In this document: one piece after another, positions 14 to 6,240 of the stretch
How positions within the stretch are numbered: the stretch's first letter is position 1
Layout: each line of letters opens with the position of its first letter
Origin: Chloroflexota bacterium
GTDB lineage: Bacteria > Chloroflexota > Dehalococcoidia > JACQGW01
DNA: 6,240 bases
Assembly (NCBI GenBank): GCA_016199325.1
Contig: JACQGW010000283.1
Span: forward strand, 1-6,240
Reading direction: 5' to 3'
Translations under genes and position numbers: made by a program
Notes under the pieces: generated by a model
Seen by the model: only the letters and a program-made list of their open reading frames with translations
The model's database searches: none
What the model was told of the DNA's origin: nothing

Positions 14-140
14 CCGGGGAGATGCTTCGCTGCGGCTCAGCATGACGGAGGTTCCGCGCGTTCCTCCGAGCCCCCGGTGCGCGCCGGGGAGATGCTTCGC
101 TGCGGCTCAGCATGACGGAGGTTCCGCGCGTTCCTCCGAG
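14..140. repeat. Two 57-bp perfect direct repeats (period 70 bp), each predicted to form two hairpins
   Basis: Positions 14-70 and 84-140 are identical over 57 bp and are separated by 13 bp. Each copy contains hairpin A with arms ATGCT/AGCAT (22-26 with 39-43; 92-96 with 109-113), a TC/TC internal mismatch that reads GA/GA on the minus strand, a 2-bp inner stem GC/GC, and a 4-nt loop. Hairpin B follows two bases later, with arms CGGAGG/CCTCCG (46-51 with 63-68; 116-121 with 133-138) and an 11-nt loop. No gene is visible here. The core resembles a dispersed intergenic repeat that I recall from Chloroflexota-like genomes (inference). It lies upstream of the first gene and could affect transcription or RNA stability, but nothing in the window proves a role. 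Confidence 0.93.
72..89. other. GC-only perfect hairpin between the two direct repeats
   Basis: CCCCGG (72-77) is the exact reverse complement of CCGGGG (84-89), giving a 6-bp all-GC stem with a 6-nt loop. The right arm is the first 6 bp of the second 57-bp copy. It could stall polymerase or act as a weak terminator for upstream transcription, but no T-run follows, so I do not call it a terminator. Confidence 0.6.
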
Positions 141-154
141 TTCCTCCGAGTTCC
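131..154. repeat. Tandem decamer TTCCTCCGAG (2.4 units)
   Basis: TTCCTCCGAG occurs at 131-140 and 141-150, followed by TTCC at 151-154. A single copy also ends the first 57-bp repeat at 61-70. The reverse complement of the decamers at the other end of the cassette (6083-6112) is TTCCTACGAG, which differs by one base, so related decamers border the gene block in opposite orientation. Confidence 0.85.
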
Positions 155-178
155 CATCAGGACGAGTGTTCCCGAACG

Positions 179-784
179 ATGGATGCGCTGTCTAAACGAT
201 TCTTCGATGCCGCCGTCGCCGCGGTCGGTCTGGTGCTCCTGTCGCCGCTGTTCCTGGCGCTGAGCGTCGCCATCAAGGCCCACGACGGTGGGCCGGTGTT
301 CCACCGAGCGACGCGCGTCGGCCGGCACGGCCGGCTGTTTCGTCTGTACAAGTTCCGCAGCATGGTGGTCGACGCCGACCGGATCGGCCCGGCCTTGACC
401 GCCGCCGGCGACACCCGCATCACGCCGGTGGGCCGCTGGTTGCGGCAGACGAAGCTCGACGAGCTGCCGCAGTTGGTGAACGTCCTGGTCGGGGACATGA
501 GCCTGGTGGGCCCACGGCCGGAAGACCCCCGCTACGTTGCGCTCTACACGCCCGAGCAGCGCCGGGTGCTCCAGATGCGCCCGGGCATCACCAGTGCGGC
601 CTCGCTGGCGTTTCGGCACGAGGAGGCGATGCTGGCCGGCCCGGATTGGGAAACCGTCTACCGCACCAGGGTGTTGCCGGCGAAGCTCGCCATCGACCTG
701 GAGTATCTCGCGCGGCGTAGCCTCCGGTCCGACATCGATCTCATCCTGCGAACTGTCGCCGCGCTGGTACGGAATGACGCATGA
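179..784 (+). CDS. Polyprenyl-phosphate sugar-1-phosphate transferase (minimal monotopic phosphoglycosyl transferase)
   Basis: This 201-aa protein belongs to the bacterial sugar transferase family (PF02397; PglC/EpsL-like). Such enzymes move a sugar-1-phosphate from a UDP-sugar to undecaprenyl phosphate at the cytoplasmic membrane face, the first step of glycan assembly. Residues about 5-33 form a hydrophobic segment broken by Ser22-Pro23, as in the re-entrant helix of PglC. Then come KFRSM (58-62), LDELPQL with the probable catalytic pair Asp94-Glu95, LVGPRPED (109-116) and RPGIT (134-138). Length matches the minimal catalytic core; the four-helix N-terminal domain of WcaJ/WbaP-type enzymes is absent. 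ATG179 is chosen because the family's usual KR-F-D start falls at residues 6-10 and no in-frame start lies close upstream. No convincing Shine-Dalgarno is seen (AGGA at 159-162 is 16 nt away). The sugar cannot be told from sequence, though the neighbouring dehydratase suggests a 6-deoxy-HexNAc. Confidence 0.95.
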   Translation: MDALSKRFFDAAVAAVGLVLLSPLFLALSVAIKAHDGGPVFHRATRVGRHGRLFRLYKFRSMVVDADRIGPALTAAGDTRITPVGRWLRQTKLDELPQLVNVLVGDMSLVGPRPEDPRYVALYTPEQRRVLQMRPGITSAASLAFRHEEAMLAGPDWETVYRTRVLPAKLAIDLEYLARRSLRSDIDLILRTVAALVRNDA

Positions 785-863
785 CGCATGCTATCGGCAA
801 GCCGCATCCATCTGCGTGAGTGTGGCATGGCACCAGCCGCCCGGCCATCTGCTGATCAGACTA

Positions 864-892
864 TTGACCTGCGGTGGTCGCTTGTGTACAAT
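864..892 (+). promoter_or_regulatory. Sigma70/sigmaA-type promoter upstream of the dehydratase gene
   Basis: TTGACC (864-869, 5/6 to TTGACA) is followed by exactly 17 bp and then TACAAT (887-892, 5/6 to TATAAT). This AT-rich patch stands out in a GC-rich non-coding spacer. Transcription would start near 899-900, giving the downstream genes their own transcript independent of the first gene. An 8-bp palindrome, CTGATCAG (852-859), lies just upstream of the -35 and could be an operator, though palindromes this short also arise by chance. Confidence 0.7.
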
Positions 893-898
893 CTGCTT

Positions 899-992
899 CG
901 TGAGGCCGGCCAGCCGCTCCATCGCCGGTCTGTCTCAAGAGATTGCACGGCCTCGACCGCCCACGTGGCGTGCTCTATTGGTGGCGTTCTGC
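899..992 (+). other. Predicted 5' leader (about 93 nt) with a possible long-range stem
   Basis: If transcription starts near 899, the leader to ATG993 is about 93 nt. GAGGCCG (902-908) pairs perfectly with CGGCCTC (948-954), enclosing a 39-nt loop that also contains CCGGC/GCCGG arms (906-910 with 924-928), which would compete with the outer stem. No known riboswitch or T-box is recognised and no terminator hairpin plus T-run is present. The 208-bp spacer 785-992 shows no credible gene; its open frames give Cys/Arg-rich, non-protein-like translations. Confidence 0.35.
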
Positions 993-2918
993 ATGAAGGA
1001 TCGACTCGCTACCCTTGTCCGGCGGTACGTCCCGTGGATGGCCATCGATGCGCTGATCGTCGTCGTCGGCTTCTACGCCGCGCTCATCTTCCGCTTCTTC
1101 GCGGTGCCTGCCCAGGCGCTCGCCGAGTACCTGGCGCCGCTCAACCGGTTCATCCTCCCGATCATCCTCCTCTACGTCACCACCAACGTGCTCTGGCAGC
1201 TCGACCGGCGCGTGTGGCGGTATGCGAGCGCGCAGGAGGTGATCTCGATTTTCCTGGCCACGAGCTCGAGCACCGTCGTCGCGATCATCGTCGACCTCCT
1301 GCTCGGCGCTGAACGTCCACGTCCGTTGCCGCTGAGCGTCATCATGCTGGGCGGCTTCTTCACGTTCAGCGGCTTTGTCATGATCCGCTATCGCTCGCGG
1401 CTGATCAGCGGGTTCCGCTGGCGCTGGCGGGCGCTTCAGGGAGAGTTTCCCGGGGCACGGACGCGCACGTTGATCTACGGGGCCGGCGAGGCCGGGCAGA
1501 TCCTGGCGTGGCGACTGTTGCACCAGAAGGAAGGCAAGGCGTACGAAGTCGTCGGGTTCGTTGACGACAATCCGGCTATTCGCGGCCTGCGCGTTCATGG
1601 GATCAAGGTGCTGGGCAGCCGCCGGGAGCTGGCGATGATCGTCAAGCGAGAGGAGGTCGCACTGATCATCCTGGCGATGTCGAGCGTGACCGGCGAGGAG
1701 CGTCGAGCGATCGTCTCCGCCTGCCAGGAGACCCCGGCGAAGATCAAGATCATTCCAAACGTGTTCGATTGGATGGCCCATTCGAATGGTGCGCCGCTGC
1801 TGCGTGAGGTGAACGTCGAGGACCTGCTGGGCCGCAAGCCGGCCACCGTCGACCAGGCGGCCTGTGCGCGCGTCATCGCCGACAAGTCGGTCCTCATCAC
1901 GGGCGGCTGTGGCTCCATCGGCTCCGAGCTCTGTCGGCGGATCGCCATGTTGCGGCCGCGCCTCCTCCTGGTGCTCGACAACAACGAGAGCGGGCTGTAC
2001 GATCTGGAGATCGAGCTGCGGGCCCGCTTCCCCGGGCTGAACCTGCGGGCCGTGGTCGGCGACGTCACCGACGAGCGCAAGATGGCGCTTCTCTTCGCGG
2101 CCGAGAGACCGCAGGTCATCTTCCACGTCGCCGCCTACAAGCACGTGCCGCTCATGGAGCAATATCCCGAGGAGGCGATTCGCGTCAACATCCGGGGCTC
2201 GCAGGTCACGGTGGAGACGGCGCTGCGCTACGGCGCCGAACGGTTTGTCCTGGTCTCGACCGACAAGGCGATCAATCCTCGCTCGGTCATGGGCGCGACG
2301 AAGCGCGTCGCCGAGATGGTGGTGCTCCACGCGGCGCGCAGCTCGAACTGTCGATGCACCGTCGTGCGCTTCGGCAATGTCCTGGGCAGTCGAGGGAGTG
2401 TGGTCCCGACATTCGCCAAGCAGATCGAGCTGGGCGGGCCGGTCACGGTCACCCATCCCGAAGCGACGCGCTTTTTCATGGAGATCTCGGAAGCGGCCAG
2501 CCTGATCGTGCAGGCCGCCAGCCTGACCACAGGCGGTGACGCCTTTATGCTCGACATGGGGGAGCGGATCCGGGTGGACGACCTGGCCCGCCGGATGATC
2601 CGGATGCGCGGCCTTCGACCGGGGATCGACATCCCGATTGTCTACACCGGCATGCGCCCGGGGGAGAAGCTCCACGAGGAGCTGTACGGCAACGGTGAGC
2701 AGAAGGAGCCGACGCCCCATCCGCTGGTCTTCCGTATCCGGGCCAATGGCCACGGCATCCCGTCCGGACTGCTCGAACAGGTCGACCGGCTCATGGCGCT
2801 GGCGCGGGAGGGGCGGCAGGAAGACGCGCGATGGGAGCTGCTCTCCCTCGCCTGGGCCGACCGGGCCAGCGAGTCCGTTCGTCAAGCGGACACTGAGCGG
2901 ATCGCCGTCGAGATGTGA
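993..2918 (+). CDS. Membrane-anchored nucleotide-sugar 4,6-dehydratase/epimerase, CapD/FlaA1/WbpM family
   Basis: This 641-aa protein is the long form of the polysaccharide-biosynthesis SDR family (Polysacc_synt_2). Four likely membrane helices (about 15-36, 53-70, 82-104, 113-131) precede a CoA-binding-like Rossmann domain with GAGEAG (163-168). The catalytic extended-SDR domain follows, with NAD(P)-binding GGCGSIG (304-310), STDKAINP (422-429), VMGATKR (432-438) and a conserved GMRPGEKLHEELYG near the C-terminus. Met433 occupies the usual catalytic Tyr position, giving Ser422-Met433-Lys437, as known for WbpM-type UDP-GlcNAc 4,6-dehydratases. The likely product is UDP-4-keto-6-deoxy-GlcNAc, a precursor of QuiNAc, FucNAc or bacillosamine-type sugars; the exact substrate is inferred. 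ATG993 is chosen because the translation becomes family-like there. The frame stays open 456 bp further upstream, but that part overlaps the preceding gene and the promoter. GGTGG at 980-984 is a weak ribosome-binding candidate. The gene overlaps its downstream neighbour. Confidence 0.93.
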   Translation: MKDRLATLVRRYVPWMAIDALIVVVGFYAALIFRFFAVPAQALAEYLAPLNRFILPIILLYVTTNVLWQLDRRVWRYASAQEVISIFLATSSSTVVAIIVDLLLGAERPRPLPLSVIMLGGFFTFSGFVMIRYRSRLISGFRWRWRALQGEFPGARTRTLIYGAGEAGQILAWRLLHQKEGKAYEVVGFVDDNPAIRGLRVHGIKVLGSRRELAMIVKREEVALIILAMSSVTGEERRAIVSACQETPAKIKIIPNVFDWMAHSNGAPLLREVNVEDLLGRKPATVDQAACARVIADKSVLITGGCGSIGSELCRRIAMLRPRLLLVLDNNESGLYDLEIELRARFPGLNLRAVVGDVTDERKMALLFAAERPQVIFHVAAYKHVPLMEQYPEEAIRVNIRGSQVTVETALRYGAERFVLVSTDKAINPRSVMGATKRVAEMVVLHAARSSNCRCTVVRFGNVLGSRGSVVPTFAKQIELGGPVTVTHPEATRFFMEISEAASLIVQAASLTTGGDAFMLDMGERIRVDDLARRMIRMRGLRPGIDIPIVYTGMRPGEKLHEELYGNGEQKEPTPHPLVFRIRANGHGIPSGLLEQVDRLMALAREGRQEDARWELLSLAWADRASESVRQADTERIAVEM

Positions 2919-4372
2919 AGATCTCCACCGACCCGGGACTCATGCTCGTCTGGTTCTTCGTCTCATGGTGGGCGATCGTGCTCACCGGAGCCAGTTCGTT
3001 TCTCGGGGTGGCGCTCGCCGTTCTGGGGGGCCTGCTCACCGGAGCCGTCGGTCTGGCTGGTCGGCCGCCGGCGGACGCTGTTGGGCCGTCGAGCAGCGCG
3101 GGGGGCGCTGCGCATTCAAACTGGATCAGGCGCCAGTGGCTCATCCTGTTGCTGCTGGCGCCGCTGTTTCTCTTTCCCGGCGGCTGGCGGACGCTCGCTC
3201 TGTTGTCGCTGCCGATCCTGTGGGGCGTGCGGTGGGCGATGCTCGGCTCGCCCGTGCCGACGACGCCACTGGACAGGCCGGTGTTGCTGGTGCTCGTGAT
3301 GGTTCTGGTCGGCGAGTGGGCGACCTACGATCTGGCTCAGAGCTTGCCTAAGATCGCGGGGCTCCTCTGGGGTGTGGGGGTCTACTATGCCGCAGTCGAC
3401 GCGATGGGTGACCGGGCTGGCTGGGGGCAGGGAGTGGTTGCGCTCCTCCTGGCCGGGCTTGGCGTCGCCGGCCTGGGTCTTCTCGGCACCCAGTGGCCGA
3501 TGAAGATCCCGGGGCTGGCGCCAGTCACCGATCAGTTGCCGCTGCTCATCAGGGGGCTGCCCGGTGCGGAGGGGGGCTTCAATCCCAACGAGGTCGGCGG
3601 CGCCCTGATCTGGACCATCCCGCCCGGTTTCGCGCTGGCCCTCGGCGGCTGGCGGACGCGCCGGCTTGGCTGGTTGGCCGGTGGCGGCGCTGCGCTCTTC
3701 ATGCTGGCGGTCGTCCTGCTAGCCCAGTCACGCGGCGCGCTGGTCGGCCTGGCCGCCGGGATGCTTGGCGTTGGACTGGTGGTTGGCGGGCGGCGCCTGC
3801 GCCTTGCCGCCATTGGCGCGGTCGTCGTGGTCGCGCTGGCCATCGCCTGGGTCGGGCCTCGGCAGGTGGGCGAACGCTTTCTCGATCATCCCGAGCGGCT
3901 GGCCGCCGGCCAGAGCATCGGCCTGACCGGGCGCGTCGAGCTCTGGTCGCGGGCTCTCGTCGCCATCGGCGACTTCCCGATCACGGGCCTCGGGCTGAAC
4001 ACGTTTCGCGTGGTGATGCCCGTGATCTATCCGGCGCCGTGGAGCTCGACCGACCGGGACATCGGGCACGCCCACAACGAGCTCTTGCAGGCGGCACTCG
4101 ACCTGGGGCTGCCCGGACTGGTCGCGTTCGTGTCGCTGCACACCGTCGCCGGCGCCGTGCTCTACCGGGCCTGTCAGCAGACTGAGGACCGATTTCATCG
4201 CTATGCGCTTGCCGGGGTCGGCGCCGGGCTGGCCGGACACCTGGTCTACGGGCTCACCGACGCCATCGCGCTCGGCGCCAAGCCGGGCTTCATCTTCTGG
4301 CTGCTGTTGGCGCTGGCGGTAGCGCCGGGGCGGTGGACCAGGCAGCTTGGTAATCAGGGGCAATTGTGCTAG
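2915..4372 (+). CDS. Wzy_C / O-antigen ligase-like polytopic membrane protein (probable polysaccharide polymerase)
   Basis: This 485-aa protein is very hydrophobic, with roughly a dozen membrane segments. The second half carries the O-antigen ligase/Wzy_C pattern (PF04932): QSRGALVGL (271-279, Arg273 likely functional) at the start of a helix, then a loop of about 80 residues outside the membrane containing GRVELW (339-344), a GLGLNTF segment and HAHNELLQ (385-392), followed by LGLPGLVAF and closing helices. Members polymerise lipid-linked repeat units (Wzy), ligate glycans to lipid A core (WaaL) or transfer them to protein. Next to a Wzz-kinase and a priming enzyme, polymerase is the best guess, but sequence alone does not separate these roles. 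The GTG start at 2915 overlaps the upstream TGA (GTGA, 4 bp), implying translational coupling. ATG2942 is an in-frame alternative that keeps the first helix. The last codons contain the promoter of the next gene. Confidence 0.88.
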   Translation: MKISTDPGLMLVWFFVSWWAIVLTGASSFLGVALAVLGGLLTGAVGLAGRPPADAVGPSSSAGGAAHSNWIRRQWLILLLLAPLFLFPGGWRTLALLSLPILWGVRWAMLGSPVPTTPLDRPVLLVLVMVLVGEWATYDLAQSLPKIAGLLWGVGVYYAAVDAMGDRAGWGQGVVALLLAGLGVAGLGLLGTQWPMKIPGLAPVTDQLPLLIRGLPGAEGGFNPNEVGGALIWTIPPGFALALGGWRTRRLGWLAGGGAALFMLAVVLLAQSRGALVGLAAGMLGVGLVVGGRRLRLAAIGAVVVVALAIAWVGPRQVGERFLDHPERLAAGQSIGLTGRVELWSRALVAIGDFPITGLGLNTFRVVMPVIYPAPWSSTDRDIGHAHNELLQAALDLGLPGLVAFVSLHTVAGAVLYRACQQTEDRFHRYALAGVGAGLAGHLVYGLTDAIALGAKPGFIFWLLLALAVAPGRWTRQLGNQGQLC

Positions 4373-4375
4373 AAT
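4347..4375 (+). promoter_or_regulatory. Extended -10 promoter for the Wzz-kinase gene, overlapping the upstream stop codon
   Basis: TTGGTA (4347-4352, 4/6 to the -35 consensus), 17 bp, then TAGAAT (4370-4375, 5/6) preceded by TGC (4367-4369), which is an extended -10 TGn element. The TAG stop of the polymerase-like gene (4370-4372) forms the first half of the -10. The start would lie near 4382, giving a leader of about 24 nt with a good ribosome site. This would let the chain-length/kinase gene be expressed apart from the genes before it. Confidence 0.6.
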
Positions 4376-4396
4376 GCGGTGAGTGGCCCGCACCGC

Positions 4397-4401
4397 GGAG
4401 G
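4397..4401 (+). promoter_or_regulatory. Shine-Dalgarno GGAGG that decides the ATG4406 start
   Basis: GGAGG at 4397-4401 stands 4 nt before ATG4406. It is the only strong ribosome-binding site in front of a gene in this window. It argues against the in-frame GTG at 4379, which precedes this site and would add nine residues not expected at a Wzz N-terminus. Confidence 0.85.
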
Positions 4402-4405
4402 ACAT

Positions 4406-6088
4406 ATGGAACTGCGTCAATATGCTGCTATTCTCTGGCGCTGGCTCTGGCTGATCGTCCTCGGGGCCGCTGTGGCCGCCGGCGTCGCCTATCTCGTCAA
4501 TACCCGCACCATCCCGGTCTACGAGGCATCGGCCACCCTGTACATCAACGCGGCCAAGGGCGTGGTGGGCGAGGGCAACGCCACGCCCGGCGACCTCATG
4601 CTGGGGCGCACATACGTCGAGCTGATGCGCAAGCGGCCGGTGCTGGATGAGGTGGTCAAGCGCCTCCAGATCGACCTGAGCGCGGGCCAGTTGGCGGCCG
4701 GGATCCGGGTCCAGCCCATTCGGGATACCCAGCTCCTGATCATCACCGTTTCGGACGTCGACCCGACCCGGGCCGCCCTCGTCGCCAATGAGGTGCCCAA
4801 GGTCTTCATCCAGCAGAACGAGGACATCCAGACGCGCCGGTTCCAGGAATCCAAAGCCGCGCTCTCCAAGCAGCTCGACCGGATCTCGTCGGACATCGCC
4901 AGGTCCCAGCAGGCCGTCGCCGACCTCAGGAGCCTGAAGAACCCTGACCTGGCAGAGATGGATCGGCTGCAGCGAGACCTGCAGGTCAGCCAGACCATGT
5001 ACGCCACGTTGCTCAAGAGCTACGAGGAGATTCGGCTGGCCGAGGCCAGGCAGGTCGATACGCTGGTCATGGTCGAGCCGGCAGAGCCGCCGACCAGGCC
5101 CGTCCGCCCCCAGACGATCCAGAACACCCTGCTGGCCGGCGTCGTGGGCGCCATGATCGCCCTGGGCCTGGCCTTCCTCAAGGAGTACCTGGACGACACC
5201 GTCAAGACCCCGGACGACATCGAGCGGATCTGCGGCTTTTCGACCCTGGGCGCCATTGCCCGCATCCCCGGCAAGGCCAGGGAAAGCCGCTATCTCCTGC
5301 GGCTGGAGTCCCGCTCGCCGGTCGCCGAGGCCTACCGCTCGCTCCGCACGAGCATCAGCTTCTCCGGCATCGACCGCCCTGTTCGGACGCTGCTGGTGAC
5401 GAGCCCCCGCCCCGGCGAAGGGAAGACGACGACGGCCATCAACGTCTCCTCGGTGATGGCGCAGGCGGGCATGAAGGTTGTGCTCGTCGACACCGACCTG
5501 CGGCGGCCGTCGTTGCATCGGGCCTTCGGACTGTCCAACGAGGCGGGGCTGACCACGCTGCTGCTGAACCGTGCAGCGCCGAGCGATGGCGTGCTCCAGG
5601 CCACGCCGGTCGAGAACCTGCGCATCGTCACCAGCGGCCCCATTCCCCCGAATCCGTCTGAGCTGCTGGCGAGCCACCGGATGAGCGATCTCGTCACGCA
5701 GCTTGCGGCCGAAGCCGACGTCGTCGTCTTCGACTCGCCACCACTGCTCGCGGTGACCGACGCGATGGTGCTGGCGCCACAGGTGGATGGGACGATGCTG
5801 GTGCTAGAAGCCGGCACCACCCGCGAGCCGGCCCTCCGCCAGGCGGCGGCCGAGCTAGCCAAGGTGGGCGCCCGCGTGCTCGGCGTCGTCTTCAACAAGG
5901 TGCCGACCTCGGGCGGCCACGGCTACTACTACTATTACTACTACTACCGCGGCTACTACCACTCGGAGAACGGCAAGAACGGCAGCGGGGGCCAGAAGCC
6001 TTCAGGCAAAAGCGACACGGCCGGCCCGCTCGTGCAAACCGCCCGCCGTGTCCTGGGCCTGGGCCGCAACGGCGCGAAGCCATCGTAG
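4406..6088 (+). CDS. Wzz-type chain-length regulator fused to a tyrosine autokinase (BY-kinase)
   Basis: This 560-aa Wzc-like protein starts MELRQY, typical of Wzz domains. Membrane helices lie at about 12-32 and 242-261 and enclose an external region with a coiled-coil-rich part (about 130-225) and a Pro-rich stretch before helix 2. The cytoplasmic kinase has the EX2RX2R oligomerisation motif (Glu308, Arg311, Arg314), Walker A GEGKT (337-341), Walker A' LVDTD (360-364) and Walker B VVVFDSPP (439-446). The C-terminal tyrosine cluster is Tyr507-514 plus Tyr517-518, followed by a 42-residue Gly/Ser/Lys/Asn-rich tail. In this family, cycles of autophosphorylation on the cluster control polymer length and export together with Wzy. 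Modulator and kinase are on one chain, as in proteobacterial Wzc rather than the split Firmicutes CapA/CapB. No cognate tyrosine phosphatase is in the window. The gene has its own promoter and Shine-Dalgarno, and its TAG stop lies inside the downstream decamer repeat. Confidence 0.95.
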   Translation: MELRQYAAILWRWLWLIVLGAAVAAGVAYLVNTRTIPVYEASATLYINAAKGVVGEGNATPGDLMLGRTYVELMRKRPVLDEVVKRLQIDLSAGQLAAGIRVQPIRDTQLLIITVSDVDPTRAALVANEVPKVFIQQNEDIQTRRFQESKAALSKQLDRISSDIARSQQAVADLRSLKNPDLAEMDRLQRDLQVSQTMYATLLKSYEEIRLAEARQVDTLVMVEPAEPPTRPVRPQTIQNTLLAGVVGAMIALGLAFLKEYLDDTVKTPDDIERICGFSTLGAIARIPGKARESRYLLRLESRSPVAEAYRSLRTSISFSGIDRPVRTLLVTSPRPGEGKTTTAINVSSVMAQAGMKVVLVDTDLRRPSLHRAFGLSNEAGLTTLLLNRAAPSDGVLQATPVENLRIVTSGPIPPNPSELLASHRMSDLVTQLAAEADVVVFDSPPLLAVTDAMVLAPQVDGTMLVLEAGTTREPALRQAAAELAKVGARVLGVVFNKVPTSGGHGYYYYYYYYRGYYHSENGKNGSGGQKPSGKSDTAGPLVQTARRVLGLGRNGAKPS

Positions 6089-6121
6089 GAACTCGTAGGA
6101 GCTCGTAGGAACTCGTGGGGA
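6083..6121. repeat. Tandem decamer TCGTAGGAAC (three units plus a degenerate fourth)
   Basis: Units are 6083-6092, 6093-6102 (one change, AAC to AGC), 6103-6112, and a partial degenerate copy at 6113-6121. The first unit contains the last serine codon and the TAG stop (6086-6088) of the kinase gene. Read on the minus strand the unit gives the GTTCCTACGA pattern, related to the decamers at 131-154. Confidence 0.85.
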
Positions 6122-6135
6122 TCGACGGCGATCCC
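6118..6135 (+). terminator. Perfect 7-bp hairpin 29 nt after the kinase stop, possible terminator without a T-run
   Basis: GGGATCG (6118-6124) and CGATCCC (6129-6135) are exact reverse complements around a 4-nt ACGG loop. The position fits a 3'-end hairpin of the operon transcript, but no T-run follows, so an RNA-stabilising or factor-assisted role is as likely as intrinsic termination. Confidence 0.35.
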
Positions 6136-6240
6136 GCCCATCCGAGCCGCGACCGTGAGGGAGCGGTTCCGCCCATCCGAGCCGCGACCGTGAGGGAGCG
6201 GTTCCGCCCATCCGAGCCGCGACCGTGAGGGAGCGGTTCC
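6136..6240. repeat. 35-bp perfect tandem repeat, three copies, reaching the window edge
   Basis: Copies are 6136-6170, 6171-6205 and 6206-6240, identical and with no spacer; the array may continue past the window. Each contains a hairpin (6144-6169 in the first copy): outer arms GAGCCGC/GCGGTTC (7 bp including one G-T), then GA opposite GA, then CC/GG, closed by the loop GTGA, a GNRA-type tetraloop if transcribed. No protein-coding gene is visible. The core 'accgtgagggagcgg' resembles dispersed intergenic repeats that I recall from several GC-rich environmental phyla. Confidence 0.95.

Follow-up and report, generated by a model that had tools for sequence, protein, structure and literature searches.

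The stretch of DNA studied here (hereafter the window) is a whole metagenome contig of 6240 bases from a Chloroflexota bacterium (JACQGW010000283.1). It bears an exopolysaccharide cassette with an array of short, imperfect palindromes at either end, and it is these two arrays, and the enzymes that may act on them, that concern us here. The cassette comprises genes for a sugar transferase (179-784), an epimerase/dehydratase (993-2918), a Wzy-type ligase (2915-4372) and a chain-length/tyrosine-kinase protein (4406-6088); no transposase was found among these four proteins when they were scanned. Relatives of the epimerase with a phylum-indicating name were few among the best 120 listed, and belonged to Dormibacteraeota and Anaerolineae, pointing to a host probably within Chloroflexota or close to it. 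The right array (6134-6240, plus strand) starts shortly past the stop of the last gene, and repeats a 35-nt unit head-to-tail with a period of 35 and 3.1 copies. Its 26-nt repeat, GAG-CCGC-GA-CC-GTGA-GG-GA-GCGG-TTC, lies at 6144-6169 (core hairpin 6147-6166), 6179-6204 and, at the contig end, 6214-6239, and each copy has a CCGA foot (6142-6145, 6177-6180 and 6212-6215, respectively). The left array (14-140) holds two identical 57-nt copies head-to-tail, with a start-to-start spacing of 70. On the minus strand, each copy forms the same hairpin, ATGCT-GA-GC-CGCA-GC-GA-AGCAT (22-43 and 92-113), with a CGTC tag directly 5' of it (44-47 and 114-117).

The sequence-only reading had proposed that both repeats, despite their different sequences, share one hairpin blueprint of an outer stem, a tandem GA/GA mismatch, exactly two inner base pairs and a four-nucleotide loop. 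This geometry is present in all five copies, three on the plus and two on the minus strand, and nowhere else in the window. Two details need adjustment. The supposed 7-bp stem of the right repeat has a G-T pair inside it, and the Watson-Crick stem beside the GA/GA is CCGC/GCGG, or 4 bp. The inner stem of 2 bp with its 4-nt loop holds within the window, but copies of the left family at large often have 3-nt GNA loops closed by 2 bp, or else three inner pairs (e.g. GCC-GAA-GGC). In 300 dinucleotide shuffles the geometry was rare. With an outer stem of 5 Watson-Crick pairs it arose 0.007 times per window, with 4 bp 0.02 times, with 5 bp allowing G-T 0.08 times, and with 7 bp allowing G-T 0.013 times. 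It should be noted that these features were picked after looking, and therefore the weight rests on the relatives of the repeats rather than on the shuffle number. The same post hoc choice is what speaks for coincidence, i.e. for two imperfect palindromes that happen to lie in a GC-rich contig. However, at 0.007-0.08 such hairpins per shuffled window, and with both repeats belonging to dispersed families with covarying stems, coincidence is contradicted for each family alone, and we consider it very improbable. As had been remarked, the GA form points outward on either side of the cassette. Nothing biological follows from this orientation, since each array sits at an end of the contig, where repeats often bring an assembly to a halt.

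The exact right repeat was found in at least 119 stretches of the genome contigs scanned, and its hosts among the matches listed are Bryobacterales and other Acidobacteria, Phycisphaerae and other Planctomycetota, one Nitrosomonadales record, and one assembly named 'bacterium'. From these loci 34 genomes were selected, rather than every matching assembly, and all 34 contain matches to the relaxed pattern GCCGCGA-N8-GAGCGG, numbering from 1 to 514 (265+249, in G001), whereas the reversed pattern matched only 0-4 times per strand. Both copy number and the gene flanking described below were thus measured in the genomes of relatives. A Y1_Tnp domain (PF01797) is likewise present in all 34, which carries little weight as Y1 genes are common. 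Among 30 fetched PF01797 loci a right-type match (with at most four mismatches) occurred at just five, with several copies at L206 and L208, and the notion that any Y1_Tnp neighbour counts was dropped, the association being concentrated on class 3 genes. An inverted flanking repeat of some kind was present at 82 of the 109 Y1 loci scanned.

The proteins that are flanked by the right repeat share a distinct signature. All 17 cores carry HxH (NHVH in 12; RHLH, RHVH, SHVH or THVH in the rest) as well as W[TA].HGST, and 16 carry Y----Q; HxH, W[TA] and Y----Q are the marks by which Quentin et al. (2018, PMC6006769) recognise class 3 TnpA-Y1, an HUH transposase. Inverted relatives of the right repeat bracket class 3 genes in both Planctomycetota and Acidobacteriota (L276, L277, L278, L282, L283, L348, L364, L385, L390 and others), and in one genome two right copies do so themselves (G108:C221). 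Among 149 Acidobacteriota genomes, the exact repeat occurs in four, class 3 genes in 13, and both in three; as such, class 3 genes are found in 3/4 right-bearing against 10/145 other genomes (one-sided Fisher p 0.002). The CCGA foot in the window fits the CnGA foot of class 3 repetitive extragenic palindromes (REPs), and not the GT[AG]G foot of GTAG REPs and class 2 REP-associated tyrosine transposases (RAYTs), since CCGA is followed by G. Feet of relatives also include ACGAG, CAGAG, CTGAG, ACAAG, ACTAG and others, their frequencies among exact copies being biased by the search patterns. When 123 loci were assigned to classes automatically, with imperfect calls, a G·A hairpin was present at 7/11 class 3, 1/2 doubtful, 3/56 class 2, 2/6 class 1 and 4/48 unclassified loci. 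On reading the frames, the two class 1 and four unclassified G·A loci appear to belong to class 3 (in several the residue preceding the first H is changed, and L294 has a stop), while the three class 2 matches are unlike hairpins. The class 3 profile matched solved structures weakly (2f4f, E 0.003; 2ec2, E 0.007). These observations support well that the right repeat belongs to the REPs of class 3 TnpA-Y1 and has this enzyme class as its recogniser.

A profile of the 17 cores (cut-off E <= 1e-25) matched in 31/294 Planctomycetota and 13/149 Acidobacteriota genomes. Around 96 distinct class 3 genes, of which 29 came from right-bearing genomes and 67 were collected by protein alone from the Planctomycetota sample, a scan of the flanks for any unpaired 2x2 internal loop repeated near the gene gave GA/GA at 22 loci (12/29 and 10/67). 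Its complement TC/TC was found at 20, sharing 19 of them, with L393 having TC/TC alone, and GA/AA, TT/TC, GT/CA and CC/AC occurred at one locus each. GA/GA with its complement is thus the only unpaired 2x2 loop type that recurs around these genes. It is joined to outer stems that include CCGC, CCAC, CCCC, CCCT, CCCG, CCGG, ACAC and GCCC, and to the inner stems CC/GG, GC/GC, AT/AT and AC/GT. The proposal that the stems would covary was borne out for the right type: in 24 distinct GA hairpins taken from the flanks of class 3 genes, changes on both sides were seen at four of the six pairs, with 33 double-change cells and a covariation of 0.663, against 0.166 in shuffled and at most 0.169 in slid alignments. 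GA/GA, proposed alongside as constant, is kept while the stems covary; sibling hairpins with a fully paired middle are also common near class 3 genes. When 49 class 3 proteins (22 GA, 27 paired) are placed on a tree, the label needs six changes against a mean of 16.3 when shuffled, and none of 500 shuffles was as low. G·A types have thus been gained or lost several times, yet follow the enzyme, as recognition would predict. Furthermore, a fresh set of nine class 3 loci from Acidobacteriota gave GA/GA at four (outer stems CCGC, ACAC, GCCC and CCGG), a paired middle at one, a GC/AA type at one and none at three, with feet that include CAGTA and AGGTA.

Two further hairpins may be recorded for their form. 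At L287 (G016:C165), a sibling pair resembling the right repeat flanks a Y1 gene and is paired through the G-A positions (CGCGAGC-GCAA-GCTCGCG), and at L340 (G031:C38) a long REP, CACGGCC...GGCCGTG after GGTGC, contains C-GA-GC-GCTA-GC-GA-G.

The left repeat leads to another group of elements. Its GA strand reads CGTC-ATGCT-GA-GC-CGCA-GC-GA-AGCAT-CTC, and relatives fitting (T/C)GTC-AT(N)CT-GA-GC-loop-GC-GA-AG(N)AT were found in 14 of the 149 Acidobacteriota genomes, with up to 114 copies, against no match for the reversed pattern. Over 68 pattern matches the third pair varies with its pairing kept (C-G 40, T-A 11, G-C 4), in loci chosen by a pattern that leaves this pair alone free. Frequent loops are GNA and GNNA, and the 3-bp inner stem also occurs. 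Compared with the CGTC-tagged REPs (Di Nocera et al. 2013, PMC3733652), the left repeat has the tag, which may be CGTC or TGTC/CCTC (the base before GTC in the 68 matches is T in 37, C in 22, G in 8 and A in 1), and in both window copies the first two pairs are A-T and T-A (AT...AT). Instead of a stem of 8-9 bp, it has 5 bp, GA/GA and 2-3 bp; instead of a tail mostly fitting CCA, the window has CTC, with CTC in 28 and CCC in 15 of the 68 matches. Judged by its sequence, the left repeat is better regarded as a relative of the CGTC REPs in G·A-interrupted form than as a member of one of the four named families.

No enzyme came forward for this left family. Y1_Tnp genes occur in eight of ten left-bearing genomes searched, while the left-rich genomes G112 (114 copies) and G070 (39) gave no Y1_Tnp and no class 3 match in assemblies of unknown completeness. 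None of 30 fetched Y1_Tnp loci from left-bearing genomes carried a left-type hairpin, two having G-A hairpins of another type (L267 and L271), and the 30 Y1_Tnp loci fetched from right-bearing genomes likewise lacked the left pattern. No Y1_Tnp was present in six viral records that carry the left repeat, but as fragments they are uninformative. Cross-matching the proteins next to 30 left loci gave 17 matches, 14 of them between L236 and L244, which overlap within one genome, and no recurrent candidate. As observations apart, the locus L267, fetched for a weak Y1_Tnp match, has at 2431-2451 the left-type inner core on another outer stem (CCCTT-GA-GC-GAA-GC-GA-AGGGG), and the left unit in the window may form a second hairpin, CGGAGG ... 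CCTCCG around TTCCGCGCGTT, at 46-68 and 116-138.

Could one enzyme nevertheless serve both families? The sequence-only reading saw in the common geometry the hint of a single recogniser, such as a REP-type HUH transposase. What remains of this is that both repeats are of REP type and that the right one is tied to an HUH Y1 enzyme; the left one shows no class 3 link. A class 3 or similar HUH protein that mobilises both through the G-A blueprint would be in line with the left inner module GA-GC-GNNA-GC-GA, which is identical in some class 3 REPs (e.g. L334 in G014, L279 in G024), and with a weak co-occurrence of left and right repeats (2/4 right-bearing against 12/145 other genomes, one-sided Fisher p 0.044), one of the two having a single left copy. 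However, left-bearing genomes are not enriched for class 3 genes (1/14 against 12/135 others, one-sided Fisher p 0.74), and the two left-rich genomes, of unknown completeness, gave no Y1_Tnp or class 3 match. Furthermore, the feet differ (CGTC-AT on the left, CNGA-G on the right), and the account of the CGTC repeats in PMC3733652 reports no transposase gene flanked by them. A single recogniser is therefore improbable. Somewhat less so, but still unlikely, is that CGTC REPs and class 3 REPs descend from one ancestral hairpin. Their module order is alike, and some families share the same 12-nt inner module, but they are unlike in their feet and outer stems, a hairpin core of 12 nt may well originate more than once, and the GA label needs its six changes on the class 3 tree.

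We therefore think it likely that the window carries two separate families of REP type with a common hairpin design. The right repeat would be a single-stranded DNA (ssDNA) substrate of class 3 TnpA-Y1, mobilised non-autonomously, and the left repeat a G-A-interrupted relative of the CGTC REPs, for which our searches identified no transposase. The likeness between the two is most likely convergent. For the right repeat we infer that it is cleaved and mobile, and that one strand is chosen for this. By analogy with related enzymes, the strand that carries the foot, once single-stranded, would fold into a hairpin with a short outer stem, the tandem G-A, two inner base pairs and a loop of the form GNNA, whereupon a class 3 HUH protein could read foot and hairpin, cut, and rejoin the strand elsewhere. 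So what might the tandem G-A contribute? Because the middle positions of class 3 REPs are either two pairs or G-A/G-A, it can stand in for two base pairs there. In DNA, tandem G·A pairs can take the sheared form and be stable. The REP strand may also be labelled by them, because the complement carries T-C mismatches. TnpAREP enzymes are described as acting on the folded REP strand and not on its complement, with stem irregularities or the foot carrying the discrimination (PMC8266576).

Several results must however be set against this interpretation. The class 3 link of the right repeat comes from relatives and not from the window's own genome, and the right copies in the window stand head-to-tail, unlike the usual inverted pair. 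Feet near class 3 genes include forms other than CnGA (ACAAG, ACTAG, AGGAG, TCAG, CAGTA and AGGTA). Under a stricter rule, asking for an inverted pair with four outer, two middle and two inner positions plus a tetraloop, 44 of the 96 class 3 loci have such pairs, with the middle paired at 27, GA/GA at 14, TC/TC at six and five other types at one each. G-A is not required for class 3 REPs. Split by origin, paired and GA/GA middles number 26 and 6 at the loci found by protein only, and 1 and 8 in right-bearing genomes, and because of the former ratio the G·A form is in the minority among class 3 REPs in general. The remaining 52 loci include GAA/GA forms and loci without a detected repeat, in a review that skipped loci below 100 bits and GA loci. 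Right-bearing genomes supplied the profile itself and 12 of the 22 GA loci, which enriches GA types in the sample as well as on the tree, where this will add to the clustering, and the 100% of paired cells among the 24 GA hairpins follows from how hairpins were selected. Lastly, the two strands differ little in folding energy as DNA, by a mean of 0.7 kcal/mol for the 24 GA hairpins, 0.4 for 18 paired ones and 0.5 for five left ones.

As RNA the strand difference is larger (means of 3.6, 1.1 and 2.3 kcal/mol, in the same order), and nearest-neighbour energies thus support strand marking weakly for DNA, and more so for RNA. A wider version of the idea holds that tandem G-A is a strand label which recurs among ssDNA elements, permitting a good fold on one strand only, where the HUH enzyme acts, and that CGTC-type repeats, the left one among them, converged on or inherited this label since an as yet unrecognised HUH enzyme moves them in trans as well; we regard this as doubtful. 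Another reading is that the hairpins act mainly as RNA, that is, as transcription ends, mRNA stabilisers or sites for an RNA-binding protein, with G-A as an RNA motif. For single hairpins, free-energy z-scores are modest as DNA (right -1.9, left -0.8) and for the left repeat as RNA (-1.7), while the right repeat folds far more strongly as RNA (-4.5), and its array sits just past the stop (6088) of the last gene. Inverted copies, however, bracket HUH transposase genes and follow their phylogeny, and an Rfam scan of the window gave no family at the gathering threshold. A predominant RNA role is unlikely, with a secondary one still compatible.

The right repeat agrees with the class 3 TnpA-Y1 REPs of PMC6006769 in its CCGA foot and in that its relatives flank genes with HxH, W[TA] and Y----Q, occur in Planctomycetes and Acidobacteria, and reach high copy number. 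That study describes class 3 REPs as atypical structures with a 5' foot CnGA, and its text on them makes no mention of the tandem G-A, of base pairs alternating with it, or of a GNNA loop; the feet found here are more varied. While class 3 is called there 'relatively rare (<0.3% of all species)', it was found here in 31/294 Planctomycetota and 13/149 Acidobacteriota genomes. The GTAG REPs with group 2 TnpAREP, e.g. of E. coli (Corneloup et al. 2021, PMC8266576), resemble the right repeat in having an imperfect stem, an internal mismatch relevant to recognition, a foot at the hairpin and strand specificity, but differ in the GTAG foot, the AA-GC mismatch and the transposase class. GTAG-type perfect hairpins at L285, L286 and L338 go with Y...NP proteins. 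For the left repeat, the CGTC-tagged REPs of PMC3733652 share the tag (TGTC in many left relatives), the A-T/T-A first pairs and the 4-nt loop of the window. No transposase gene flanked by them is reported there, and the searches here, with Y1_Tnp genes present in eight of ten left-bearing genomes, gave no candidate for the left repeat. They differ from it in the stem, which GA/GA breaks on the left, in the tail (CTC/CCC and not CCA), in the 3-nt loops common among left relatives, and in the head-to-tail order of the window copies; moreover, Acidobacteriota lie outside the five phyla listed there. By description, Neisseria dRS3 and Rickettsia RPE (CGTC-1/-4), both CGTC-tagged dispersed palindromes (PMC3733652), can also be likened to the left repeat. 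Many class 3 REPs gain here an explicit, covarying anatomy of foot, outer stem, paired or tandem G·A middle, inner stem and GNNA loop, which tracks the transposase tree and makes enzyme recognition testable with short oligonucleotides. The left family, which is plentiful in genomes that gave no Y1 transposase match, is a sharp case of the question of who moves CGTC REPs.

Some features of the window stand apart from the hairpins. Both contig ends carry decanucleotide tandem repeats, GTTCCTCCGA (118-149) and TCGTAGGAAC (6083-6114), which are oppositely oriented and show 75% complementarity across 32 nt. In another organism, GTAG-1 arrays have been described on the flanks of exopolysaccharide genes (PMC3733652), which may or may not be relevant to the cassette of the window. 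A literature search by repeat sequence returned no title about these repeats.

Another observation concerns Y1 genes that lie in frame inside host genes. Nine frames of a valyl-tRNA synthetase (ValRS)-type class I tRNA synthetase have a Y1_Tnp domain in mid-frame (L275; L276, 162-4001 +; L277, 287-3952 +; L278, 265-3657 +; L282; L283; L284; L286; L453). Each is one open frame of 1100-1301 amino acids, some being cut by the locus end, and REP-type hairpins flank the domain at those examined. In six of the nine the domain is clearly class 3 (L276, L277, L278, L282, L283 and L453/L390), and L286 has a class 2-type Y1 protein. Other hosts of an in-frame Y1_Tnp are an alanyl-tRNA synthetase (AlaRS; L291), PurH (L289, L292 and L293), Ham1 (L288) and a restriction-modification (Eco57I/DUF7008) protein (L452). 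A literature search gave no title on in-frame Y1 or REP insertions in host genes. REPs, though not REPtrons, have been noted inside tRNA synthetase genes of three species (PMC3733652), and unexpectedly long proteins were discarded as fusions or annotation errors in the classification of TnpA-Y1 (PMC6006769). A search for long proteins with a class 3 domain gave 98, the query included, of which by Pfam label 51 have a class I tRNA synthetase domain (ValRS-type), 31 are AlaRS, 11 are PF06634 methylase-like and five are other.

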